Both the position numbers and the translations under genes were made by a program. From assembly GCF_024137865.1 (NCBI RefSeq), contig NZ_CP099960.1:124001-188000 (forward strand): 64,000 nucleotides of DNA, written 5' to 3'. Under the pieces are notes generated by a model. That model was not told the origin of the DNA, did not search any database, and saw only the letters and a list, made by a program, of their open reading frames with translations. Source of the stretch: Moraxella sp. FZFQ2102 (lineage in GTDB: Bacteria; Pseudomonadota; Gammaproteobacteria; Pseudomonadales; Moraxellaceae). Numbering within the stretch: the stretch's first letter is position 1; each line of letters starts with the position of its first letter. Below, piece after piece: positions 23,675-36,790 of this stretch.

Positions 23675-26600
23675 GTTTCAACACACACCCTCTCGCGTGG
23701 AGGGTGACAGTGGCTTGTGGTGGCGAACCTGAAACCAAAACTGTTTCAACACACGCTCCCGCATGGGGAGCGACAGGCTTTTTTGACATTAATTCGCCGT
23801 CGCGTGTGATGTTTCAACACACGCTCCCGCATGGGGAGCGACGGTAATCATGTTAGAGCACTATTTGTTATCCATGGCGTTTCAACACACGCTCCCGCAT
23901 GGGGAGCGACTTCTTCTTTAATATCGAAGTTATTAAACCCTCTAGTTTCAACACACGCTCCCGCATGGGGAGCGACTAGGGGGGGGTACTGGTAGATTTA
24001 CTAGGGGGTTGCGGTTTCAACACACGCTCCCGCATGGGGAGCGACGCGACTTGGCTGGCACACCACGGGGCTTGTGTATGTTTCAACACACGCTCCCGCA
24101 TGGGGAGCAACTAATCATAATATTAGATTCATAAGAACCAGTTACAGGTTTCAACACACGCTCCCGCATGGGGAGCGACTAAAGGTGGTAACGACACCCA
24201 AGGCAGGTTAGGTGGTTTCAACACACGCTCCCGCATGGGGAGCGACCCAATGATGACACGCACTTTGCCGTCTTTATTGGGTTTCAACACACGCTCCCGC
24301 ATGGGGAGCGACTTGAATCGGTCAGCTGCATCAGCTTGACCACTCGCGTTTCAACACACGCTCCCGCATGGGGAGCGACCTGATGCCGATTTCGACATTG
24401 AGATGCTTTGCCATGTTTCAACACACGCTCCCGCATGGGGAGCGACCTTGCCAAGTGATAGCACCGTCATTGTGGCCATGGTTTCAACACACGCTCCCGC
24501 ATGGGGAGCGACCACAAGCTACACAACAAAACCCGTCCCCATTTCGTGTTTCAACACACGCTCCCGCATGGGGAGCGACCCACCGCAACAAGTCCTTGCC
24601 ACGCCGCACTAAAGTTTCAACACACGCTCCCGCATGGGGAGCGACTTCGGCAAACTGGCTAAAACATCATCGCAAAGCATGTTTCAACACACGCTCCCGC
24701 ATGGGGAGCGACCGTTAGCTTCCGTATTATCTAAATTTAAAATACGGTTTCAACACACGCTCCCGCATGGGGAGCGACTGTCTAGTTTCAAAACAATTGA
24801 ATACTAGTCTCTTAGTTTCAACACACGCTCCCGCATGGGGAGCGACCGTAGCGTAAATAGAGACCTTTGCATTACGGATTATGTTTCAACACACGCTCCC
24901 GCATGGGGAGCGACTTCAGATAGCTATAAAGAAAGAGAAGTATTAGTTAGTTTCAACACACGCTCCCGCATGGGGAGCGACATACCTTGGGTTAGTACTT
25001 TTTTGCCATGCTCTGAGTTTCAACACACGCTCCCGCATGGGGAGCGACCTTGGTAATCTTCAGGTCGCATATTCATGCGATTTAGTTTCAACACACGCTC
25101 CCGCATGGGGAGCGACAGTACCGCCCAGCTGATCCATCAAATTACCTTTGTTTCAACACACGCTCCCGCATGGGGAGCGACTCCTGAGGATGACGGCTTT
25201 GAAGTCATCAACAACGTTTCAACACACGCTCCCGCATGGGGAGCGACGTAGTAATGGCAGGGTTATTATCCGTATCAAACGTTTCAACACACGCTCCCGC
25301 ATGGGGAGCGACCTTTTGCGGTCTTGGCAGTGGCAATGTGGTCGCCGTTTCAACACACGCTCCCGCATGGGGAGCGACCGTCATCCAGCCGTTTTGTAGC
25401 GCGGATGTATAGTTTCAACACACGCTCCCGCATGGGGAGCGACCACCACCAACGGAGTTTGTACTGTGTGCCAATATGTTTCAACACACGCTCCCGCATG
25501 GGGAGCGACGGTTGCCGATGTTTTTAGTGAGTAGGAATTGTAAGTTTCAACACACGCTCCCGCATGGGGAGCGACACGGCAGTGCGTACTTGTTTAGTTG
25601 ATTCAAAGTTGTTTCAACACACGCTCCCGCATGGGGAGCGACTTACGGTAGTAAAGCCGTTGTTTTTGGTGATAAAGTTTCAACACACGCTCCCGCATGG
25701 GGAGCGACTTTATCACAAGGCAAAATTAAGGTAACTGTAAAATGTTTCAACACACGCTCCCGCATGGGGAGCGACACAGTAGTCCTGAACAAAGAGTAGA
25801 GATTGAACAAAGTTTCAACACACGCTCCCGCATGGGGAGCGACCGGGAGCAAAGCTAAAAGTTATCCACACTCTAGCAGTTTCAACACACGCTCCCGCAT
25901 GGGGAGCGACTTCCGTCAATGGTTTCTATGGAGAGCGTATTAGGAGTTTCAACACACGCTCCCGCATGGGGAGCGACAGCTCTTGCTTCTTGGCTTAGGT
26001 GCTGTTCTTGGTTTCAACACACGCTCCCGCATGGGGAGCGACTACGCCAAGATTACGCCAAGATTACGCCAAAAATGTTTCAACACACGCTCCCGCATGG
26101 GGAGCGACACATCTCTGTTGTAAAGCCTAGCTGTCGTGCTTTTGTTTCAACACACGCTCCCGCATGGGGAGCGACTTGATGTTAAGCGTATTGCACGCAT
26201 GAACCGCAAATTTGTTTCAACACACGCTCCCGCATGGGGAGCGACAAAATACCCTGCCATCATGCCTTTTAGACCACCAAGTTTCAACACACGCTCCCGC
26301 ATGGGGAGCGACGCCAAAGCATCACCAAACCCCATTGGTGCTACAGTTTCAACACACGCTCCCGCATGGGGAGCGACGGGTTGTGGATCACTTCCATCAA
26401 CTGTTGAAAAATGTTTCAACACACGCTCCCGCATGGGGAGCGACATGCGGTGTTGTACCGCGGATTTTATGGCGAAGATGTTTCAACACACGCTCCCGCA
26501 TGGGGAGCGACTCGCTCATCTTTAAACATTTAGAGTCGTGAAGTGGTTTCAACACACGCTCCCGCATGGGGAGCGACATGCAGAGAGATTTAAAACAATG

Positions 26601-26776
26601 CAACAAACCTTTGTTTCAACACACGCTCCCGCATGGGGAGCGACTATGGGTTACGGTTGGGATTGGGCCGAATTGATGTTTCAACACACGCTCCCGCATG
26701 GGGAGCGACGTAAAGATAAGAAAAGCGATGCTTTATTTATTAAAGTTTCAACACACGCTCCCGCATGGGGAGCGAC
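23675..26776 (-). CRISPR. Type I-C CRISPR array, 47 repeats, 46 spacers
   Basis: A 32-bp repeat (plus strand begins GTTTCAACACACGCTCCC and ends GGGGAGCGAC) recurs every ~67 bp with spacers of 33-38 bp. Read on the minus strand it begins GTCGCTCCCC and ends TTGAAAC, the type I-C form, so the leader is on the high-coordinate side by cas2. All repeats are identical except that at 24080 (one G to A near the end) and the oldest, at 23675-23708 (34 bp, several changes that still keep a stem). No spacer is obviously duplicated. Spacer 26043-26076 contains an internal 11-bp tandem repeat. Confidence 0.98.
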
Positions 26777-26953
26777 TGCCATCATTGCAATGGCAGTATT
26801 TTCAAGGCTTAGCAATGGCAAAATCGCTAAAGCCAAGCCTTAAAAACATCTTTATTGTAGATGATTTTATTTTTGTTTTCAATTGTTAAATAATTCAAAG
26901 GCTTAGCTCATCGCCAACCCTCCAGCAAATCCATGACAACCACCCGTTAGCGA
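26777..26953 (-). promoter_or_regulatory. CRISPR leader
   Basis: 177 bp between cas2 and the newest repeat. It contains TGCCAT/ATGGCA inverted arms at 26777-26795, right beside the first repeat, and AAGGCTTAGC twice (near 26805 and 26898), features that could bind IHF or the adaptation complex. No open frame. Confidence 0.75.
26854..26882 (-). promoter_or_regulatory. Pre-crRNA promoter in the leader
   Basis: On the minus strand TTGAAA (26882-26877) and TACAAT (26859-26854) are 17 bp apart, placing the start about 70 nt before the first repeat. Confidence 0.7.
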
Positions 26954-27247
26954 TTAGACAATTAGCACATCTTGAAAGACATCCACCGCAGGCTTTGCTC
27001 CATGATGCTCCACCTTGCGTCGCCATTTACTTCCTAGATGATAAAAACGCAAACTATCCACCTTTGGGTCATAAGTTTTTAGCAATTTATCCTTTAGAAC
27101 CACCCACTGGTCGGGCGTTACATCACACTCAAATACCGAGTACTGCGCTCTCACGCCATAATCTAGACAATGCTTAGCGATTTGGCGAAGTCGTTTCGCT
27201 CCCGCTTTATCGTCTAGCGATATATCATAAGTAATTAACATCATCAT
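26954..27247 (-). CDS. cas2: CRISPR-associated endoribonuclease Cas2
   Basis: 97 residues with the N-terminal MLITYDISLDD strand carrying the metal-binding Asp at position 8, and C-terminal VDVFQDVLIV. Cas2 bridges two Cas1 dimers in the spacer-integration complex. It starts four bases after cas1. The leader begins at its stop codon. Confidence 0.96.
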   Translation of the reverse strand: MMMLITYDISLDDKAGAKRLRQIAKHCLDYGVRAQYSVFECDVTPDQWVVLKDKLLKTYDPKVDSLRFYHLGSKWRRKVEHHGAKPAVDVFQDVLIV

Positions 27248-27251
27248 AAGA

Positions 27252-28265
27252 CTATCTCATCAAAAATGGTGGATAATGTGCCAAATCACCCCGCAAATGC
27301 CTTGCTAGTAGCATGGCTTGAATATGGGGCAATAAGCCGATTTCCACTTCTTCTTTTAGATATGGATGAATGATTTTTTCTTGTTTTTTGACTTGCAAGG
27401 CTTGAAATACCAACTTTCTGGCATCTGGCTTGAGATTGACCGCGCCGCTAGCTTCGGTAGTAAAGTCATCAAGCTTAAGCTGTCCACGATTAACCAAAGT
27501 CAGCGCCAATCTATCCACCCACCATGCACGAAACTCTTCTAAAATATCCTGTGCCAAACTATCCCGCCCCGGTCTATCAGCGTGCAAAAATCCCACTTGC
27601 GGATCAAGCCCAACCCCTTGCAATGCCCCGCTAATATCCTTACCTACAATACTATAAAGTAATGATAATAAAGCATTTATTTCATCTTTTGGTGGTCTGC
27701 GATTACGTCCATGAAACACAAACCCTGTATCTTTGCCAATCAAATGATGAAATATCGCAAAATAATTTGCCGCCGCTTCACCCTCAATACCCCGAATTCC
27801 ATCAAGGCTTTGAGTATTTTGCAATCTTAACAGTCCATTATTCAGACATTGAATTGCCTGACCAATTTCAGCAATCTCGCCATGATTTCTTTGTCTGCGT
27901 TGTAGCACTCGTTTGGACGCTTGAATTTTGGCGGCGATAATATGCCGTGCAATTGGTACGGGGTTTTGTTCGGACAATCGATATTGCGCCCGCCGTAGCA
28001 GCACATTACCACTTTGTCGCCCCTGCAAACGCCCCAAAAATCGCCCATTTTCGGTAAAAAATGCCAAATTAACATTATTCTCACCACAAAATCCCATCAA
28101 AAACGGCGATACCAACACATTGCCAAAACAAAAGATATGCCCGATGGAATGTACTGGCAACTGCGCCATCTTTTTGCGTTCATGCTCCACCACCAGCGTT
28201 TCCCGCTCCTTATGCAGATAACTGCCCTGCGTGGTGATATACAGTGTATTTTGCAGCTTGCGCAT
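27252..28265 (-). CDS. cas1: CRISPR-associated integrase Cas1 (type I-C)
   Basis: 337 residues. Catalytic residues of the integrase are visible: Glu161 in GIEGEAAANYF, His228 in QVGFLHADRPGR and acidic residues in DILEEFR (240-245). Together with Cas2 and Cas4 it inserts spacers. AGGGAG stands 11 bases ahead of the ATG. It is separated from cas4 by the OLD-like gene and by a 165-bp spacer with a Neisseriaceae uptake sequence. Confidence 0.96.
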   Translation of the reverse strand: MRKLQNTLYITTQGSYLHKERETLVVEHERKKMAQLPVHSIGHIFCFGNVLVSPFLMGFCGENNVNLAFFTENGRFLGRLQGRQSGNVLLRRAQYRLSEQNPVPIARHIIAAKIQASKRVLQRRQRNHGEIAEIGQAIQCLNNGLLRLQNTQSLDGIRGIEGEAAANYFAIFHHLIGKDTGFVFHGRNRRPPKDEINALLSLLYSIVGKDISGALQGVGLDPQVGFLHADRPGRDSLAQDILEEFRAWWVDRLALTLVNRGQLKLDDFTTEASGAVNLKPDARKLVFQALQVKKQEKIIHPYLKEEVEIGLLPHIQAMLLARHLRGDLAHYPPFLMR

Positions 28266-28302
28266 GGTTAAAAAAACTCCCTTGATTTTGACCTCACCTT
28301 AA

Positions 28303-28314
28303 AGGCCGTCTGAA
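28303..28314 (+). repeat. Neisseriaceae DNA uptake sequence, AG-DUS form
   Basis: AGGCCGTCTGAA, an exact 12-mer of the AG-DUS variant, in the gap upstream of cas1. Confidence 0.85.
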
Positions 28315-28327
28315 AAATATGTCAGAT

Positions 28328-28395
28328 GTAGGACGGGTGTAAACCCACCGATTAGCCAGTCGCCCGATTTAAAAATTTTGTCGGATTACACCTAC
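28328..28395. repeat. Intergenic inverted-repeat element next to the DUS
   Basis: GTAGG and GTGTAA on the left are mirrored by TTACAC and CCTAC on the right, with a nested GGGT/ACCC hairpin. Short hairpins of this kind are common between Neisseria genes; I cannot name the element. Confidence 0.45.
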
Positions 28396-28430
28396 TTGAA
28401 AAGTTTTTATAATAACACCTATATTTACTA

Positions 28431-29813
28431 TCACTTTTCAAAATATTCATTTAAGCTATCAAATATTTTACTCATATCATCACGATAATGTTCTTGAAGG
28501 ACTTTGTCCTTATTTAATAAACCTTGTTTTTCAGCAACCGCATCGCGTGCGGGTTTTGTTCTAATATCATCAGCAGGAATAATTTCAAAACCATACTTGG
28601 GAAACTGTTCTTTCAAACTCTCAAAATTTTCTCTCTTATCTCCATCTAAAATGGCAGCTACTTTATCAAACCCTAAATCTTTTGCAATTTTGCATAAATA
28701 TTGAATATTTCCAGCACCACCCACTCCCCATCCAAAAAAACTTCCTTGCAATTTTTTATTTAACTGCTCAGCAATTTTAGGATATAAGATTACATCTTCT
28801 TGCCCCTCTACAAGAATGATTCCATCCTCTTGAAAAAAGAATTCACGAGCATCCAATCCCCATGTATGTGGATTATACAAATTACCCTCTGCCAGTTTTG
28901 GAATTAAAGCTGTTGAAGTTGAAGATAGCTGATAAATTTTTGTCCCCTCATCACTAGAGATAACTCTTGCCAAAGCCGCTCCCATAGATAAGGCATTAAT
29001 ATCAACAAAATAAGGAGAATGCGTTGATATGACAATCTGTCTATCTCTTGCATACTCAACAAAAAGTTTACTCAACCTCTTTTGCAGTGATGGATGTAAA
29101 GATAGTTCAGGTTCATCTATGACAATAATGTCACCTTGTTGTGAGTCATACAGGGCATCAACAATGACAAAAATACTGACAATACCCTCCCCCATTCCAT
29201 TACTAGAATAACTATTCCGACCAGATGTGAATTTTAAAAAATACTGCCCCATTTCATTTTGATCAATAGCCCACTCGGGTCTAAAACCTAAGACTTTCTC
29301 CAAAATATCATCAAATTCCTTTTTTGTCCCATCATCTTTTTCTATTGAAAACAATCTATATGAAAACTGATCTAATAATGAGCTTCTTTTAGCTTGAAAT
29401 GCAGTATTTAGGATATAGGTTTCTCTATTTACTTCGGATTTGTGAAAATATGGTTCAAAAGCCCTCCTAGATGGGACAACAAAAATCTTCTTCTCGCACT
29501 TTTCTCCCTCAAATTTTGTCTCGCTAGAACCTTTGTGCACCGACATCAAAATTTCCTGGCGTTCATCAAATAGATACTCAATCTCAACTTTGTCAATCAA
29601 ATTATTTCTGACTCCATTTGGAAAGCTGGGTGGGTTATACCCTTCTCTCGCTCTCAAACATTCAATAATTGAAGATTTTCCAGAATTGTTAGAGCCAGTA
29701 ATAATCGTAAGCCCACTACCTTCAATACCATCTTGTTTTGGAGTAGCAAAACTAATTTTTTGTTCTTGCTGAAAACCTCTATACCCCACTATTTTCATAG
29801 TTCTTAAAAACAT
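28431..29813 (-). CDS. OLD-like ATPase with TOPRIM nuclease domain, inside the cas operon
   Basis: 460 residues. An ABC/SMC-like ATPase comes first: Walker A GSNNSGKSS (40-48), signature-like SNGMGEG (204-210), Walker B IIVIDE (229-234) and His loop STHS (263-266). A TOPRIM domain follows: LVEGQED with Glu336, and LDGD with Asp390/Asp392, the metal-binding acidic residues. This is the OLD-family layout shared by P2 Old and Gabija GajA. No partner helicase or reverse transcriptase is adjacent. It starts 24 bases after cas4, same strand, and the DNA is visibly more AT-rich than the cas genes. The in-frame Met at residue 6 is an alternative start. Confidence 0.9.
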   Translation of the reverse strand: MFLRTMKIVGYRGFQQEQKISFATPKQDGIEGSGLTIITGSNNSGKSSIIECLRAREGYNPPSFPNGVRNNLIDKVEIEYLFDERQEILMSVHKGSSETKFEGEKCEKKIFVVPSRRAFEPYFHKSEVNRETYILNTAFQAKRSSLLDQFSYRLFSIEKDDGTKKEFDDILEKVLGFRPEWAIDQNEMGQYFLKFTSGRNSYSSNGMGEGIVSIFVIVDALYDSQQGDIIVIDEPELSLHPSLQKRLSKLFVEYARDRQIVISTHSPYFVDINALSMGAALARVISSDEGTKIYQLSSTSTALIPKLAEGNLYNPHTWGLDAREFFFQEDGIILVEGQEDVILYPKIAEQLNKKLQGSFFGWGVGGAGNIQYLCKIAKDLGFDKVAAILDGDKRENFESLKEQFPKYGFEIIPADDIRTKPARDAVAEKQGLLNKDKVLQEHYRDDMSKIFDSLNEYFEK

Positions 29814-29837
29814 TTTCTTATATCCCCATAGTGAAAT

Positions 29838-30509
29838 TTACTTATCATCAAACAACCCCGCCACATACCCCACCGACCTATCCTTCTCCAACAGCTTTGG
29901 TTGACATAACTCTATGAGCGAGCACGCCTTACAGCGTTTGTCATAGTTAGGTGAAGGTGTTTGCCCACTTGCCAGTAGAATCCTGACCTGATGAATGATG
30001 GTAAGCGTCTGCTCTCTTAGCGCATCGGTAAACGCCACAGATACGCGATGACGGGTCTGCATATACCATAGCGCGCCCTCGCTGATGGTTTGTTCAGTCA
30101 TCTCTTCCAAACACAGCGCCTGCGCACAAAGCTGGATTTCATCGAACGGCTCGGGTTTGGGCTTACCGCGTTTGTATTCCACAGGATACAGTTGCCCTGT
30201 GGAGAGTTCACACTCCACCATATCAATGACACCGCTTAGCCCCAGTCTTTCGGCAGAGACGTGTACACTACGCTCGAAGCGCACGCCTTTGCGCGTTTCT
30301 GGCTCACCGCTATCCACTCGCCTATGCAAGGCTTGACCTTGTGCAGTCAGATAATTTTCTGCCCACGCTTGTTCGTTGTGAATCAATGCACATTGGCGTG
30401 GGCAGAAGGCGTAGTGTTGCAGGGAGGAGAGAGAAACGGTGGGTAGATCCCGTTCCCCCGCGCCTGCAAGCAGTGGGTTTTGCATAGAATTTTGCAAATT
30501 TTCTGCCAT
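29838..30509 (-). CDS. cas4: CRISPR-associated exonuclease Cas4
   Basis: 223 residues of the RecB-like nuclease family. An N-terminal cysteine lies in HYAFCPRQCALIHNE, and the C-terminal group in RCKACSLIELCQP completes the iron-sulfur cluster. VEYKRGKPKP contains the catalytic lysine motif. Cas4 trims prespacers and selects the PAM. Its ATG overlaps the cas7 stop by one base (TAATG). Confidence 0.95.
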   Translation of the reverse strand: MAENLQNSMQNPLLAGAGERDLPTVSLSSLQHYAFCPRQCALIHNEQAWAENYLTAQGQALHRRVDSGEPETRKGVRFERSVHVSAERLGLSGVIDMVECELSTGQLYPVEYKRGKPKPEPFDEIQLCAQALCLEEMTEQTISEGALWYMQTRHRVSVAFTDALREQTLTIIHQVRILLASGQTPSPNYDKRCKACSLIELCQPKLLEKDRSVGYVAGLFDDK

Positions 30510-31411
30510 TAGAAGCCGTCAATCTCAGTAGGAACCAAGCCATCGAGATTATTCAATTCATAGCTGCCGTCTGCATTGACTTTCAGGCTGCCGTGAACTT
30601 TGGCAGATGAATACTGTCCTGCTTTGCAATTGTGTTCCCACCAAATCAGTTTCAACACCTGCATGCTACCTTCAGGGCGGGCGGATGAGGCGTCGCCTTC
30701 AAACAGTTTGGTTAAAACGGCTTTGATAGTTTCAGCATCGGCGTCGGAAAAGCCGGTGCGTTCGGCAAGTTGCGGCGACATGGCACCGAAGGCAACATAG
30801 ATGCCGCTATCCACGCGGTGCTTCATGCCCAAGGTGTCGGAACTTTTTTTCACATCACTATCACCATCACCATTCACGCTTTTGGTAATTTGAGTACTGG
30901 TAATATTGATGGGCTCAATACTGAATGCCGAATGAACGGTAACAGGACCGCGTACAGCAATAGATACACCATCTTCACCTTTACCGCTGAATGCTAAAAC
31001 TTGCCCAAAGCTACGCACATCCAACCATTTTTGGCAAGCCCTTTTGGCGATCTCATCCTTTTTCAAATCTTCCTGGGTGGATTTCTTCTTGTTTTTTTTA
31101 CCTATTTCGCCCCCCAATAAATCCGTTTCATCTGCATTCTGTTGGTTCTCCTTTAATTGTTTAATGAAAGCATCGTAGCGGTCTTTTAAGCTTACCATGC
31201 CATCATCTTTTCGCTCATTTGCTTGGACAAATATTGATTGTTTTTCATCCTGCAGGCGGTCGCGGATTTTGCGCTTCAAACAAACATCGGTCATTTCGCC
31301 GAAGCCTTGGAAGTCAGCGCGTGGACGGTTGCCGTTTAAAGGATCGCCATTGGGGTTGGCGTTGGTAACTTTAAGAATCAGGGCGAAGTCGATTTTTTTG
31401 GTTAAGCTCAT
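30509..31411 (-). CDS. cas7: Type I-C Cascade backbone protein Cas7 (Csd2)
   Basis: 300 residues beginning DFALILKVTNANPNGDPLNGNRPR, the Csd2 RAMP signature. It forms the helical filament along the crRNA spacer. A Lys-rich insert (KKNKKKSTQEDLKKDE) lies near residues 108-124. It starts 25 bases after cas8c, with AAGGAAA upstream of its ATG. Confidence 0.95.
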   Translation of the reverse strand: MSLTKKIDFALILKVTNANPNGDPLNGNRPRADFQGFGEMTDVCLKRKIRDRLQDEKQSIFVQANERKDDGMVSLKDRYDAFIKQLKENQQNADETDLLGGEIGKKNKKKSTQEDLKKDEIAKRACQKWLDVRSFGQVLAFSGKGEDGVSIAVRGPVTVHSAFSIEPINITSTQITKSVNGDGDSDVKKSSDTLGMKHRVDSGIYVAFGAMSPQLAERTGFSDADAETIKAVLTKLFEGDASSARPEGSMQVLKLIWWEHNCKAGQYSSAKVHGSLKVNADGSYELNNLDGLVPTEIDGF

Positions 31412-31436: not shown

Positions 31437-31838
31437 TTATTCAGCGGTTTTGGTTTTCTTTTGCTTGGCAGCTTTGCGCTCGGCAATTTGGCGGTTGATT
31501 TCCATTTTTTGGCAATGATAACCAAGAAGAAACTCACCGCTTAATTTGTCGTCGCAAATAAAATCATTGCGTTGGAACAGCTCCATAATTTCTCCAATGG
31601 CTTGCGTGCCCGTATCTTTGCCGCGGCTGCGAAGGCGGTCTTGATAGGGTTTCAATGCCAATTCGATATTGCGCCAAGTCGCGAACGGGTGTTCTGCAAA
31701 GCGCTGCATATAACGCTCGGCTGTGGTGGCACGCTTTTCCTCCGCCAGATAAAGCGCGTAGGACTCGATGTTCTCAGCTATTGCCAGCAGTCTGCCGAAT
31801 AAATAATCGCGGGAGCGGTTTTCAGTATCCAAGCTCAT
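31437..31838 (-). CDS. cas11c: Predicted internal Cas11c small subunit (within cas8c)
   Basis: An in-frame ATG at 31838 (cas8c codon 567) is preceded by CGGAGA ten bases upstream and would give a 133-residue product starting MSLDTENRSRDY. In type I-C systems, including that of Neisseria lactamica, Cas11 is known to be made from an internal start in the cas8c 3' end. Start position here is inferred from the ribosome binding site and the expected size. Confidence 0.6.
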   Translation of the reverse strand: MSLDTENRSRDYLFGRLLAIAENIESYALYLAEEKRATTAERYMQRFAEHPFATWRNIELALKPYQDRLRSRGKDTGTQAIGEIMELFQRNDFICDDKLSGEFLLGYHCQKMEINRQIAERKAAKQKKTKTAE

Positions 31839-33536
31839 AAGGTAAGTTCTCCGTTGTGATAAATCATGATGACGGGCGCGCCAGCCTTTGTATAAGGCAC
31901 AAGCGACGCCAATATTGCGTTGCCAATTAGCTTTACGAATTTTTTCCCCACCTTCTGGGCGGTGGTTTGCATAAGGATTGCAGGCTACTTGAAAACTTTT
32001 TTGCACCAAATAGTAAGGAATCGGCACGTTTTTGCCACCGGCAATCACGGGTAACAGGCGGGCGTAGAGTTGTTTTTTCAGGGTATCGCTTAAAGCCTGC
32101 CCATAAACGGCATAACCGATAGCAGCCGGCGACGGCGGCACGAACACCCAAAGGGTTTGTTTGTCGGATTTTTTGCCGTTTGGCTTTTCGATGCTGTGGC
32201 GTTGATACCAAGAAAAATCGTCTATCCAAGCGTCCAGATTGGCGAAATAATCAGCTGGCAGAAATTCTTGGTAATAGGTTAATGCCATGCGTCCATCTGT
32301 TGATTTATCTAACACAAGCAAAGAAATTTGCTCATGATTTTCCAAATTAACTCTATATCCATGCAGTTTTTTCTTAATAATCTCGGCTGCTTTTTGACCT
32401 ACCGAACTTGACCAATCTTTACCTGAAATGTTTGTTTCAGACGGCATTTCTTCTTCATTTTCAACCGTACTGGTATCTAAGTTATCCCAATCAATCATGC
32501 CAAAAGAATCTTTCATCGGCGATGGAACTTCTTTACCGCTAATTGCCCAAACAACCGTTTTTTGATCACCGTTACAGATTCCCTGACGCTTTATCAACCA
32601 TTTCAACATATTAAATGCTTTTTGAGAAACACCCCTTCCCAAGATTACAGCCTGACTGCCTAATTCAGATTTGGCACCATTGTCTCTATCCCCATAGAAC
32701 CGCCCCCGAAAAGTAAATCCAGTATAATCATTGGCAGAAACCACTTTCGCATTACCGTCAATTTTCGGGTATGCCTCTACCGGATAATCTTCTTCTCCCG
32801 TTATGTAGCATAACTCTTTGCTTTTATTACCTTGTTCAGATTGGCTTTCTTGATATTTAATCCATTGGCTCTTAATATTGCTTTTGCTCCATAAGTCGGA
32901 ATGAGGGTCACTTGGCATATCCACAGCCCACACAATTGTCAAACCAAACGGATCGTCCTTACCTGACATCAGGATATTATCTTCAAAAGAAAAATATTTT
33001 TTCTCGATCAAGTCATCAATCAGCGAACCTTTTTGGACATAGCGCAAGACAATGTTTATTTCTTGCAAACCACTAAACTCAGCCCAATCGGATAGCTGCT
33101 TCCCATAACATTCAAAATAACTTTGATATTTTGCCTTTTCCGCATCGGCAAAATTTTGTTTTTCCTCATCAGAGCCAGCAAGAAAATCTTGCCATTTTTT
33201 CCCACCTTTTCCCTTAGCCCTTTTGGGGGCAATTTGAGACAAATATTCAATTGTTAAGTAATCTTTCGCTGTTTTAGCAATATATTGCAAACCATCGTGC
33301 AACGCATATGCTGCAATCGTCGAACCAGAACGTTTTGATGATTTTTCGGTTACTTGAATAGGGACCTGCTTTTTGCCTTCAAACCGTTCTGCCCGTACCA
33401 GTTCTGCCTTGTCGTTTAGAACGACTTTCAAATGAACCGCTTTGGACAGATGAAACGGCAATGCTAATTCTTCATCATCCAACCCTTGGTTTTGGACAAA
33501 CTCATACGTCCGATACAATTTCTGCATCCAACTCAT
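31437..33536 (-). CDS. cas8c: Type I-C Cascade large subunit Cas8c (Csd1)
   Basis: 699 residues, longer than the usual ~570-620 of Csd1. It opens MSWMQKLYRTYEFV and has the C-terminal SLDTENRSRDYLFGRLLAIAE block typical of Csd1. It recognises the PAM and helps recruit Cas3. The ATG overlaps the cas5c stop by four bases (ATGA). An exact Neisseria uptake sequence lies inside at 32436-32447. The tail is very Lys-rich (RKAAKQKKTKTAE). Confidence 0.95.
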   Translation of the reverse strand: MSWMQKLYRTYEFVQNQGLDDEELALPFHLSKAVHLKVVLNDKAELVRAERFEGKKQVPIQVTEKSSKRSGSTIAAYALHDGLQYIAKTAKDYLTIEYLSQIAPKRAKGKGGKKWQDFLAGSDEEKQNFADAEKAKYQSYFECYGKQLSDWAEFSGLQEINIVLRYVQKGSLIDDLIEKKYFSFEDNILMSGKDDPFGLTIVWAVDMPSDPHSDLWSKSNIKSQWIKYQESQSEQGNKSKELCYITGEEDYPVEAYPKIDGNAKVVSANDYTGFTFRGRFYGDRDNGAKSELGSQAVILGRGVSQKAFNMLKWLIKRQGICNGDQKTVVWAISGKEVPSPMKDSFGMIDWDNLDTSTVENEEEMPSETNISGKDWSSSVGQKAAEIIKKKLHGYRVNLENHEQISLLVLDKSTDGRMALTYYQEFLPADYFANLDAWIDDFSWYQRHSIEKPNGKKSDKQTLWVFVPPSPAAIGYAVYGQALSDTLKKQLYARLLPVIAGGKNVPIPYYLVQKSFQVACNPYANHRPEGGEKIRKANWQRNIGVACALYKGWRARHHDLSQRRTYLMSLDTENRSRDYLFGRLLAIAENIESYALYLAEEKRATTAERYMQRFAEHPFATWRNIELALKPYQDRLRSRGKDTGTQAIGEIMELFQRNDFICDDKLSGEFLLGYHCQKMEINRQIAERKAAKQKKTKTAE
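32436..32447 (-). repeat. Neisseria DNA uptake sequence, exact 12-mer (in cas8c)
   Basis: ATGCCGTCTGAA on the minus strand, the canonical AT-DUS of Neisseria. Confidence 0.9.
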
Positions 33537-34294
33537 AATCCCAACTCCTTGGCTTCATCTTCCACCGGCTTCACGTTTTCGCCGCGTTTAAACGGTTTTT
33601 CAGGCTGCATCTCGCGGATAAAGCGGGTTTTAAGGCAGCCTGTATCATCGTTTACATTTGGGAATTCAATCACGCCGTATTGCATATTGGCCTGCCAAAA
33701 ACGGCTAACCAGCTCGTGTTTGCCCGTTTCTTCGGGATAGCCGAAGCTGTGGAACATTAGTCCGAAATCGAGATTGTCGATTTCATTGTAAAAGCCTGCT
33801 TTGCCGTCCCGACTTGGGCTGCCGAATTCGCACGGCTCCACATAGCCCTGACAATCGCGCGTGCCCAAGAAAATATCCTGTCGTCCGCCGCGCTCCAGCA
33901 TCCGCTTGGCAATTGCCATATGCTTGCCCAGATTGCGGTCGTCTTTGAGTTCTTCCCAGTATTCGTTCCAAGTAAAATGTGCTTGTACTTGGTATTCCAC
34001 ATCTTGCAGAAAGGTGTAAATCGCCAGCGTATTGCCGCCGTTCCAATCCAAGGGTTTGGTGGATTTGCTTTGGGTGCGAATCGGCTTCATCACACGGATT
34101 TTGTCGATGTGCCAAATCAGTGTGGGTTTCCAGTAGATGCTTTTCAAAATACCTTTTATCGCTTCATACGTCGGCACTTGGTAGCTGAATTTTTCGCCGC
34201 CGATTTTGGTAACGGGGTCGGTAAACAACGCCTGCCGCCCCCATACTCGAAAGCTAAATAATTCGCTCCGAAATGTTTTTTCATTTTCCATCAT
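33533..34294 (-). CDS. cas5c: Type I-C Cas5c, pre-crRNA endoribonuclease and Cascade subunit
   Basis: 253 residues with the Cas5 RAMP opening (FSFRVWGRQALFTDPVTKIGGEKFSYQVPTYEAIKGILKSIYWKP). There is no cas6 in the locus, and in type I-C Cas5 cuts the repeat hairpin itself and holds the 5' handle. GGAG precedes the ATG. Two Kingella-type uptake-sequence variants lie near its 3' end (33599-33610 and 33633-33644). Confidence 0.95.
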   Translation of the reverse strand: MMENEKTFRSELFSFRVWGRQALFTDPVTKIGGEKFSYQVPTYEAIKGILKSIYWKPTLIWHIDKIRVMKPIRTQSKSTKPLDWNGGNTLAIYTFLQDVEYQVQAHFTWNEYWEELKDDRNLGKHMAIAKRMLERGGRQDIFLGTRDCQGYVEPCEFGSPSRDGKAGFYNEIDNLDFGLMFHSFGYPEETGKHELVSRFWQANMQYGVIEFPNVNDDTGCLKTRFIREMQPEKPFKRGENVKPVEDEAKELGL

Positions 34295-34300
34295 TACTCC

Positions 34301-36754
34301 TTACTCACAAAGAAACGGCATTTCACCTACTTCATCAACAGACAATCCAAATTTATCACTATAATAACTTATGCCACAATAATCAATATAATAGACTCCA
34401 GTATTTTCAATCTGCTTTAACACACCTTTTTCCTCTAAAGTTTTCCATACATTTGGAAATATATTCACACTAAAAAGTTGTGCTTTTTTCAAATTTTCAT
34501 AACGCTCTTTCATATCTATGCCACCACATAATTTAGCAATAATCTCCTTACCATCTGCATAAGGGACAATTGCTGCACGGGTCGGCGCTTCGATCACTTG
34601 AAATTCCTGCCCCGCACTTTTAAATGATTGCATGAGTAGCGGAAATAGCTTTGTTCTTCTATCATTTTTTGGTGCATAAACATTTAAACGATTATCTGAA
34701 AGCCAGTCTAATAAAGAACCGGATGAACTACTTTTAATGTTATATGCCATCTCCTGACTACGGTTATAAAAATAATATTTAAAAAATTGCTCAATAGCTT
34801 GGGGACGCAAAATATCTTGGTCGATAAATTCACGTAATACACGTTCGGCCTGAATTTGCCCTTGATGAATATCAGGTAAAACTTGCTCTAAACTCGGCTC
34901 TTGCAGATTCAATACATACACCTGCCCTTTACCATCTTTTTCACCGTGCCGGTTGCAGCGTCCTGCTGCTTGGGCAATGGAATCCAATCCCCCCAAAGCG
35001 CGGATCACGCAAGCCATCGAAATATCCACGCCGGCTTCAATTAACTGGGTACTGATGCAGATCACCGGCTGTTTGTTTTTCAGACGGCCTTTGATCTCGT
35101 CAAAAATGGCTTTGCGGTGCGCCGAACATTGATTGGTACTCAGATGAAACAGGGCTTCGGGCGGCACGTTTTGCTGTTGGCAGTATTGGTATAAATCACG
35201 CGCCCATTGCTTGGTATTGACGATAAACAGGCAACTTGAGGCCGTTTGAAACTGCGTCAATAAAAGTTCACCTGCTTCAGCCAGTGACCATCCGCCTGCT
35301 TTGGGTTGATAGTGGATTTCCACACGCGATAAGTCATCGAACAGCTTGTTTAACTGATCGTTTTTGCCCATGATTTCGGCATTTTCCGCCAATTTTAATT
35401 CGCCGAATTCCGATTTGGACAGCTTATCGAGCAGTGGCTGGGTAGCGGTACACAATATCGCGCTGGATTTGCCGAATTGAGTTAACCAATTCAATGTGTT
35501 GCAAAATAAATGCACGCATTTCACTGGCAGGGTTTGGATTTCATCAAAAATCAGCACGCTCTTGGTCATCGGGTGGATATGCCGTGCACCACGTGTGCCG
35601 CCGCCAAACCAGGCATCGAGAAACTGCACCATGGTGGTAAACACAATCGGCTTATCCCAGTTTTCGGCAAGCAGCTTGTCTTGCCAGTTTTGTTTTTCGG
35701 GGTCAAGATTGGAGTGATGTTCCAGAACCCAATCTTCGCCAAGAATTTTGCGTACCGCCTCGGCATTTTGGTCAATGATGGATGTGTAGGGAATAATGTA
35801 GATAATACGGTCAAGATTGTGCTTGTGCGCATGATGCAAGGCATAGCGCAGGCTTGCCAAGGTTTTTCCGCCACCGGTCGGCACGGTCAACGTATAAATA
35901 CCTTGCGCATCGGCAGCGCGTTTCAGACAGACATCGGATATCTCGCGGCGGATTTTGTCAATCGGGTAGCGGATTTCGAAACCAGCCAAATGGTTTTCAA
36001 GCTTATCAATCGCTTCTTGCCAGTTTGGCTTTTGCATCAAACGGCACAAATCCTTTTGTATTTCGCGTTCAAAATCTGCGCTGTTGATGCGGTCGGCATC
36101 AATCAGGCAGCTGAACAGAAAGCGGGTTAGACAACCAAGATAAAATTCTTTGATTTTATCGTTGCTATCTGGTTGCTTCAGAATGGTCACCAGCGGTTTT
36201 AACAGCAATTTAACCAAATCTTCATTAGCCAAACCTTCCGCCTGCCGCTTGACCGCTTCATCAACATTTTGCTCGCACTCTGCCAAATGCGTCAGCACAT
36301 CGTCTTTTGAAAAGCGTGTCCGCCATACCGCATCACCTTCGGGATTCAGGCAGTCGATCAACCCCGCCCCATGGTGCGAAGCAATACACAATCCCAGTAT
36401 CTGCCCAACCAATTCGCCGATGCCGTTTTCACCAAAATTTTTCAGACGGCTATACACCCATTGTGCACCCGCCGTGGAATGGTCTGGCTTGTCGCCCAAA
36501 CCTCCATCATCGTCCGTACCAGCATCTTCATCGCAGTCATAAAACTCCAAACCGTTATTCTCATAAATTCTTTTTTGAAATTTCTTGGAATATTTGCCAA
36601 AGTCGTGCATCAAGCCCAGCAACTCGCCTGCTGCAGGCAAATCCAGCTTGGCTGCCAATTCTCTGGCAATCGCGGCGGTTTCGGTTAAATGGGTGGCAAC
36701 AGATTGTTCCGATTTATCCGCTTGGCGGACATGCGCAATATAGTTTACTGCCAT
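34301..36754 (-). CDS. cas3: Cas3 helicase-nuclease (type I-C)
   Basis: 817 residues from the ATG at 36754, chosen for GAGGA upstream; a TTG at 36775 is less likely. An N-terminal HD nuclease (LLGLMHDFGKYSKKF, His50-Asp51; ASHHGAG) is followed by a superfamily 2 helicase: PTGGGKTLASLRYALHHA, the DEIQ box (LIFDEIQTLP), CTATQP and a C-terminal QAAGRCNRHG. It unwinds and degrades DNA marked by Cascade. It is the first cas gene; cas5c starts six bases after it. Confidence 0.96.
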   Translation of the reverse strand: MAVNYIAHVRQADKSEQSVATHLTETAAIARELAAKLDLPAAGELLGLMHDFGKYSKKFQKRIYENNGLEFYDCDEDAGTDDDGGLGDKPDHSTAGAQWVYSRLKNFGENGIGELVGQILGLCIASHHGAGLIDCLNPEGDAVWRTRFSKDDVLTHLAECEQNVDEAVKRQAEGLANEDLVKLLLKPLVTILKQPDSNDKIKEFYLGCLTRFLFSCLIDADRINSADFEREIQKDLCRLMQKPNWQEAIDKLENHLAGFEIRYPIDKIRREISDVCLKRAADAQGIYTLTVPTGGGKTLASLRYALHHAHKHNLDRIIYIIPYTSIIDQNAEAVRKILGEDWVLEHHSNLDPEKQNWQDKLLAENWDKPIVFTTMVQFLDAWFGGGTRGARHIHPMTKSVLIFDEIQTLPVKCVHLFCNTLNWLTQFGKSSAILCTATQPLLDKLSKSEFGELKLAENAEIMGKNDQLNKLFDDLSRVEIHYQPKAGGWSLAEAGELLLTQFQTASSCLFIVNTKQWARDLYQYCQQQNVPPEALFHLSTNQCSAHRKAIFDEIKGRLKNKQPVICISTQLIEAGVDISMACVIRALGGLDSIAQAAGRCNRHGEKDGKGQVYVLNLQEPSLEQVLPDIHQGQIQAERVLREFIDQDILRPQAIEQFFKYYFYNRSQEMAYNIKSSSSGSLLDWLSDNRLNVYAPKNDRRTKLFPLLMQSFKSAGQEFQVIEAPTRAAIVPYADGKEIIAKLCGGIDMKERYENLKKAQLFSVNIFPNVWKTLEEKGVLKQIENTGVYYIDYCGISYYSDKFGLSVDEVGEMPFLCE
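35079..35090 (-). repeat. Neisseriaceae DNA uptake sequence, AG-DUS (in cas3)
   Basis: AGGCCGTCTGAA on the minus strand, exact. A one-mismatch copy (AGGCCGTTTGAA) is at 35239-35250 on the plus strand. Confidence 0.88.
36441..36452 (-). repeat. DNA uptake sequence core (in cas3)
   Basis: The 10-base core GCCGTCTGAA is exact on the minus strand; the two leading bases are TA. Confidence 0.82.
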
Positions 36755-36790
36755 ATCAATCCTCGCATTCCACAAAATGACTTATAGCCC

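Follow-up and report, generated by a model that had tools for sequence, protein, structure and literature searches.

A probable slot for interchangeable defence genes at the cas4-cas1 junction of type I-C CRISPR operons, with an OLD-like nuclease gene as one of its cargoes

Introduction

The closest described counterparts of the arrangement reported here are the P2/P4 hotspots, small (about 1-5 kb) loci of high turnover that lie between two conserved genes and hold diverse defence systems, among them PARIS and a reverse transcriptase with a SLATT protein (PMC9122126, in part). For Pseudomonas aeruginosa, conserved sites at which many kinds of defence system accumulate have been described as core defence hotspots (PMC10250203, in part). 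As to the type of nuclease considered below, class 1 OLD proteins are encoded by a standalone gene that is not paired with a GajB helicase or a retron reverse transcriptase (PMC10568477, in part), and the acidic metal ligands of the Thermus scotoductus enzyme (TsOLD), with their spacing, have been described (PMC7049728, in part). The 2025 CRISPR classification mentions the acquisition of ancillary genes in general, and the available portion of its main text contains neither 'toprim' nor 'old family' (PMC12669027). The words 'between cas4 and cas1' refer to protein distances in the available part of PMC5704561, and this wording is also present in PMC6519985 (in part). No report of a defence slot between these genes was found among the papers listed by the searches, which mainly covered open-access literature.

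The DNA analysed here, called the window below, is a stretch of 64,000 nucleotides from Moraxella sp. FZFQ2102 (NZ_CP099960.1, positions 124,001 to 188,000), in which a gene for an OLD-like protein lies in a type I-C cas operon (Table 1). The type I-C operons of Moraxella, the Neisseriaceae and a family presumed to be the Pasteurellaceae are likely to have a slot for interchangeable defence cassettes where cas4 meets cas1, with the OLD-like gene as one of its cargoes.

The OLD-like gene and its locus

The OLD-like gene is intact, occurs once in the Moraxella genome and lies between cas4 and cas1 of a complete operon, which confirms the original prediction of an OLD-type ATPase-nuclease placed there on the cas strand. 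By source name, the relatives of a hydrolase encoded in the flank are first from Moraxella (at 64% or less) and then from Psychrobacter. Walker A (K46), Walker B and signature motifs of an ABC ATPase were all found in the protein, and its TOPRIM metal ligands E336, D340, D390 and D392 (E..D and DxD) have the spacing of E377, D381, D431 and D433 in TsOLD; D415/D416 are a candidate for the other metal-B pair (S478/E480 in TsOLD). The best whole-chain structural match is the class 1 OLD of T. scotoductus (6p74), with which the whole-chain fold is shared. PADLOC ranks AriA (2e-25) and NsnB (4e-22) before Old (7e-20, third) and GajA (3e-18), with the ATPase half dominating the scores; the AriA models cover the ATPase part, and the fused AriAB model scores 2e-13. 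The ATPase-Toprim_I-B and ATPase_I-A models (7e-15) come below AriA, Old and several GajA models.

The gene stands alone with cas4 and cas1 as its neighbours, as expected of a class 1 OLD; no UvrD-like GajB, the partner in Gabija (class 2), is adjacent, and no reverse transcriptase, as in the retron OLD proteins of class 3, is found among the neighbouring genes. PARIS (class 4) was rejected, as the protein is a single chain with an OLD-like_TOPRIM domain and not the DUF4435-type TOPRIM found with AriA/AriB, separate or fused. Judged from its family, the protein has a fairly good chance of working like P2 Old or Thermus OLD, in which case its ABC ATPase would gate a two-metal TOPRIM nuclease that would attack phage DNA or kill the infected cell.

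In the original prediction, an own promoter and terminator, together with homologues that have no preference for cas, would mean chance insertion. Promoter matches were at chance level (22 against 19.2 expected), which speaks neither for nor against an own promoter; on the minus strand they fall at 30382-30354, within cas4, and at 28343-28314, ahead of cas1. The terminator scan listed no terminator on this strand. The RNA fold of the spacer between the OLD-like gene and cas1 had a z value of -0.31.

Table 1 Features of the source locus (positions in the window) and of the fragment arrays in Neisseriaceae
Feature	Position	Strand	Remark
OLD-like ATPase-TOPRIM nuclease (460 aa)	28431..29813	-	cargo of the cas4-cas1 slot
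cas4-cas1 slot	28266..29837	-	1572 bp, GC 0.35 vs 0.45 around
cas1 leader AAGGTGAGGTCAAAATCAAGGGAGTTTTTTTAACC	28266..28300	-	right edge of slot; resembles AAAGTGCGGTCAAAAYCAAGGGAGTTTTTCAACC of many loaded loci
DUS GCCGTCTGAA	28305..28314	+	Neisseria-type, adjoins leader
Further DUS	32436-32445, 35079-35088, 36441-36450	(-)	
cas2	26954..27247	-	
cas1c	27252..28265	-	right anchor gene
cas4c	29838..30509	-	left anchor gene
cas7c	30509..31411	-	
cas8c	31437..33536	-	
cas5c	33533..34294	-	
cas3	34301..36775	-	
CRISPR array	23677..26850		repeat GTTTCAACACACGCTCCCGCATGGGGAGCGAC, ends approximate
cas1'-cas4' arrays	L150 943-4090; L151 5904-7857; L152 4684-5675		coordinates with cas1 on +

Neisseria-type uptake sequences had been noted at the locus, and four are present (Table 1). 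The 10-mer, which we take to be the Neisseria-type DUS (the identity of the DUS and USS motifs and of their taxa being presumed throughout), occurs 18 times in the source genome, with 4 of these copies within 8.1 kb at the cas locus. A wider pattern of DUS dialects gave 54 matches in G000 versus 6-10 in three family-mates. From these counts, all or most of the operon was probably acquired from bacteria that carry DUS, with the motif assigned as above. DUS-rich stretches of about 8 kb were also seen in two genomes of different families (G000:C1:812703-820064, L087, and G499:C28:25055-33132, L088); L088 contains a gene product that by eye resembles a metal-transporting P-type ATPase.

The cas4-cas1 junction in related operons

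The survey set comprised 80 loci besides the window: 3 from Moraxella, 26 from Neisseriaceae and 51 from family f170, presumed from its uptake-motif density to be the Pasteurellaceae. Family names were thus inferred from uptake motifs, and the Neisseriaceae were picked by DUS counts (883+872 matches in G704, for example). Cas1c was carried by 4 of 22 genomes of the genus, 30/83 Neisseriaceae and 54/140 members of f170. Junction gaps were taken from tblastn matches extended to the ends of the open reading frames, so that single values are approximate. Left out from the Neisseriaceae were L137 (G1038) and L140 (G1021), which have no cas4 match upstream, and L150 (G1004) and L152 (G1013); L150-L152 are fragment arrays and were excluded from the gap counts, with L151 and L152 kept in the cargo counts. 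L225 was excluded as no junction was measured. In f170, 52 of 59 places were fetched (leaving out G1122, two on G1112 C40, two on G1187, G1195 and G1188) and 51 were measured.

A gap of at least 300 bp between cas4 and cas1 was present in 64 of the 80 loci (25/29 in Moraxella and Neisseriaceae together, 39/51 in f170), the gap being shorter in the other 16. No such gap was found between cas5 and cas8 or between cas8 and cas7 (each 0/76, with 0/27 in Moraxella and Neisseriaceae and 0/49 in f170). Between cas7 and cas4 it occurred in 6/78 loci (5/28 and 1/50), between cas1 and cas2 in 0/28 and 2/52, and between cas3 and cas5 in 7/20 and 5/31. Extra genes elsewhere in the operon were noticed between cas3 and cas5 in L129 and L147, and between cas7 and cas4 in L124, L130, L131 and L152.

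As a class-wide control, Cas1 was matched in 28 of 229 genomes (window included), which gave 28 other loci, 23 of them with a separate cas4; the five not counted are L256, which has no cas4 match, and L259-L262, in which cas4 and cas1 seem to be fused. In 19 of the 23, cas4 lies less than 300 bp from cas1, and the gap reaches 300 bp in 4 (L236, L248, L252 and L255). The difference between 64/80 and 4/23 has a Fisher p of 6e-8, which is descriptive only because loci share ancestry, and the control loci are more distant. Of these four inserts, the one that was inspected, upstream of cas1 in L252, holds by eye a nucleotidyltransferase/HEPN-like pair; as it lies outside the three families, such a slot may also be present, though less often, in other groups. 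Cas1c was found on 26 plasmid records; in 12 of these the listed cas4 and cas1 matches overlap, and in the four inspected among the other 14 cas4 lies within 10 bp.

Within the genus, cas4 and cas1 are 6 bp apart in G010 (L086), which is the empty counterpart of the slot. G020, at the same place beside ilvE (named by eye), has a 541-aa ATPase at the junction with fused AriAB as its best PADLOC match (1.4e-35), and G001, at another genomic place, a CBASS-type pair of an SMODS+AGS_C cyclase with a SLATT_4 protein. Between G020 and the window, Cas1 is 98%, Cas2 100% and Cas4 83% identical, and Cas3, 5, 8 and 7 are 26-33% identical over the aligned parts; effector and cargo vary around a common adaptation module. 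Moraxella thus harbours two diverged I-C effector lineages (window 31437-36775 vs L084 7883-13902) with nearly identical adaptation modules, and both lineages are present in Neisseriaceae too.

Cargo of the slots

Counting open reading frames of at least 100 aa as cargo, and excluding Cas1 with an upstream start (L185, L199) and a frame antisense to cas1 (L124), we obtained 82 cargo frames from 62 loci, a number in which the window, L151 and L152 are counted. They form 55 protein groups, 15 of which are common to Neisseriaceae and f170 with identities of up to 93%, and 78 of the 82 have the orientation of the cas genes. The usual cargo consists of one or two genes in a gap of 0.3-2.7 kb; five loaded slots (L132, L133, L184, L220, L221) have no frame of this length. 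Slot GC is 0.27-0.37 in 25 of 26 loaded Moraxella and Neisseriaceae loci (0.43 in L130) against 0.43-0.55 around.

Profile scans identified DarTG (L123, L150), HNH_5 (L125, L202) and PIN_12 (L129) proteins, restriction-modification systems of AlwI type (L127) and BsuBI/PstI type (L135), a CAAX protease with a 349-aa partner (L130), Nmad2 (L134), Old (L136, 1e-60), an AbiP2 reverse transcriptase (L138, 2e-199), Shedu (L144, 2e-152), CBASS-type (L085, L145), AriAB-like (L084) and GmrSD_N (L216) proteins, as well as NYN/LOTUS (L187), RhuM (L194), HATPase_c (L213), DUF1643 (L228) and metallo-beta-lactamase-fold (L191) proteins and a weak LmuB match (L139, 3e-8). By blastp grouping, DarTG was further assigned in L215, HNH in L147 and L185, PIN in L201, Nmad2 in L141 and L205, Old in L183 and L229, AbiP2 in L148, L151, L193 and L230, and CBASS in L196. 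Two types of OLD protein are present among the cargoes. Of 43 proteins scanned, a set that leaves out most f170-only cargo, 11 had no Pfam match at E 0.01 (L126, the L130 partner, the 219-aa protein of L131, L142, L146, the 207-aa protein of L152, the small frames of L124 and L136, L203, L208 and L212), and five more matched only below the curated cut-off. Many cargoes, not necessarily all, are of defence type. The cas4-cas1 space in these bacteria reads as a catalogue of defence-type genes, in which one odd gene becomes a rule, and their position in the slot makes the 11 proteins candidates for new antiviral systems.

Relatives of the OLD-like protein

The OLD-like gene was found in the source genome only, that is in 1/22 genomes of the genus and 1/249 sampled genomes of the family at E 1e-20, and in 1/369 genomes of the class at E 1e-60. 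In a protein search 7998 candidates were scored, 2039 of them at E 1e-3 or better; among the best 120 of the 2039, which were listed, there are at least 14 full-length relatives at 68-89% identity, with source names that include Neisseria animaloris, N. sicca and Aggregatibacter, followed by a broad group at 53-58%. Seven relatives at 45-58% are encoded on viral contigs (contig ends cut L008 and L010). According to PHROGs, baseplate, portal, terminase or spanin proteins lie beside them in L003, L006, L007 and L010 and a phage methyltransferase near them in L004 and L010, and by gene order we read these contigs as P2-like. A scan of the viral contigs with Cas1 gave no match. With the OLD-like protein, no relative was found among phages at 1e-20, one (43%) among plasmids at 1e-30, and one weak match (31%, residues 217-265) in a scan of genome contigs.

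Within the slots, none of the other 61 of the 62 cargo-bearing loci has a relative that matches over half the protein, and the best match in a set of 26 loci is 31% over 124 aa. A 483-aa protein in the cas3-cas5 insert of L147 aligns in part with the OLD of the window. A specific tie of OLD-type genes to type I-C operons was not supported, and an ancillary type I-C Cas protein was rejected as an identity: the gene is absent from the other 61 loci and its relatives are in phage contigs without cas. As far as sequence comparison goes, the OLD-like gene has no preference for cas and is not a component of type I-C.

Turnover, leader and fragment arrays

Slot cargo turns over faster than Cas1. Only 3 of 70 pairs of loaded loci with Cas1 at least 97% identical have cargo in common; L131 (Neisseriaceae) and L207 (f170) carry different cargoes at a Cas1 identity of 99.4%, and identical kinds of cargo recur across families. 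Cargo switching at near-identical Cas1, together with recurrence across families, is what would be expected from recombination in the flanks, by a route that we infer. The slots show no enrichment in DUS (9 in 38.8 kb vs 164 in 282.9 kb). A cassette flanked by DUS was rejected on these counts, which argue against a simple uptake-sequence cassette.

In many loaded loci, cas1 is immediately preceded by a leader of about 35 nt, which presumably contains a Pasteurellaceae-type uptake core. In f170, the leader score reached at least 14 in 25/39 loaded loci and in 6/12 empty ones; of the six, only L190 has the AAAGTGCGGT core, the five others having a different AT-rich leader. In Neisseriaceae and Moraxella the leader was judged by eye. 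As a universal mark of the slot it holds only in part, given the high scores of half of the empty f170 loci.

Fragments of the anchor genes also occur. Four such cases, two in G1004 and one each in G1013 and G1038, consist of the first part of cas1 (nt 1-347) joined to cas4 sequence that begins at nt 175, the junctions having the same 9-nt overlap and adjoining different cargoes. The arrays of G1038 and G1013 adjoin genes that by eye resemble rpoD and dnaG, and the G1004 contig with the fragments measures 4.3 kb. G1038 has intact cas1-cas2 on another contig than the fragment array. In G1038 (L137, L151) and G1021 (L140), cas1-cas2 was seen without cas4 in the fetched upstream stretch, and G1038 has a cas5-cas8-cas7-cas4 module on another contig. 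These arrays may be no more than debris, or they may form a reservoir. Antigenic variation draws on silent pilin cassettes, and by analogy one may tentatively imagine, as a possibility we would not bet on, that in competent mucosal bacteria the type I-C operon works as a platform for cassette exchange, in which cas4 and cas1 would serve as homology arms, the operon would drive the docked module, and silent cas4'-cargo-cas1' cassettes at other places in some genomes would be a reservoir for switching innate defences.

Possible explanations

The cargo follows the cas4 stop, and in many loaded loci the conserved cas1 leader (about 35 nt) bounds it on the other side. If the junction is a slot for defence cassettes, cargo would probably be read from upstream within the cas operon. 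Cassettes would move from locus to locus and from genus to genus; the most likely route is uptake of DNA followed by homologous recombination in the cas genes on either side, and Moraxella, Neisseriaceae and Pasteurellaceae are naturally competent groups. The survey bears directly on the view that a passenger nuclease gene, unlinked to the site, was inserted by chance. Low slot GC and the sporadic occurrence of the OLD-like gene in genus, family and class agree with this view, but it is contradicted by the loading of the same junction in 64/80 related loci, and we regard it as very unlikely. The original prediction had counted homologues without preference for cas towards chance insertion; the lack of preference was indeed found, whereas chance is at odds with varied genes in so many slots. 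A role of the OLD nuclease as a helper that prepares prespacers for Cas4-Cas1-Cas2 is suggested by its nuclease family and by the cas4 and cas1 genes at its flanks. It is nonetheless extremely improbable, as the gene is absent from every other measured locus, including G020 with its nearly identical Cas1 and Cas2 and the empty locus of G010.

More serious, though still unlikely, is a functional coupling, in which the position would be favoured by selection because the genes act together, beyond its use as a landing site. Slot genes would then stand in as guards or back-ups against a block of CRISPR immunity, or would use DNA intermediates in common with Cas3 or Cas1. The cas5-cas8-cas7 block is free of inserts, and DarTG, CBASS, AbiP2, PARIS-like and OLD cargoes resemble abortive-type systems. 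The strand bias of the cargo points the same way, but is also predicted by tolerance of operon insertions. Moreover, the cargo is mechanistically very diverse and includes plain restriction-modification systems (L127, L135), a spread more in keeping with general usefulness than with any single coupling, and members of this OLD family are also found where cas is lacking, in phage contigs. With a slot for interchangeable cassettes, a physical and regulatory coupling of adaptive and innate defences becomes testable, and so does the way in which bacteria of different families trade immunity.

Comparison with known systems

The OLD-like protein resembles the class 1 OLD proteins P2 Old and T. scotoductus OLD (6p74) in being the product of a single gene that combines an ABC ATPase with a TOPRIM domain, and differs from them in its length (460 aa vs 528 for the 6p74 chain) and in being embedded in a cas operon. 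By name, the PADLOC ATPase-Toprim_I-B and ATPase_I-A models represent ATPase(-TOPRIM) proteins near type I-B and I-A cas genes, which are other subtypes than I-C. For the core hotspots of P. aeruginosa, the title and abstract describe no slot within an operon (PMC10250203). The P2/P4 hotspots, in the part of the report available, come closest, with diverse and fast-changing defence-type cargo at a fixed site between two conserved genes; their anchors, however, are phage or satellite genes, whereas here they are cas4 and cas1, two genes of an operon with a defence role of its own. The slot thus follows a known hotspot principle, and is new in that it lies within another defence operon.
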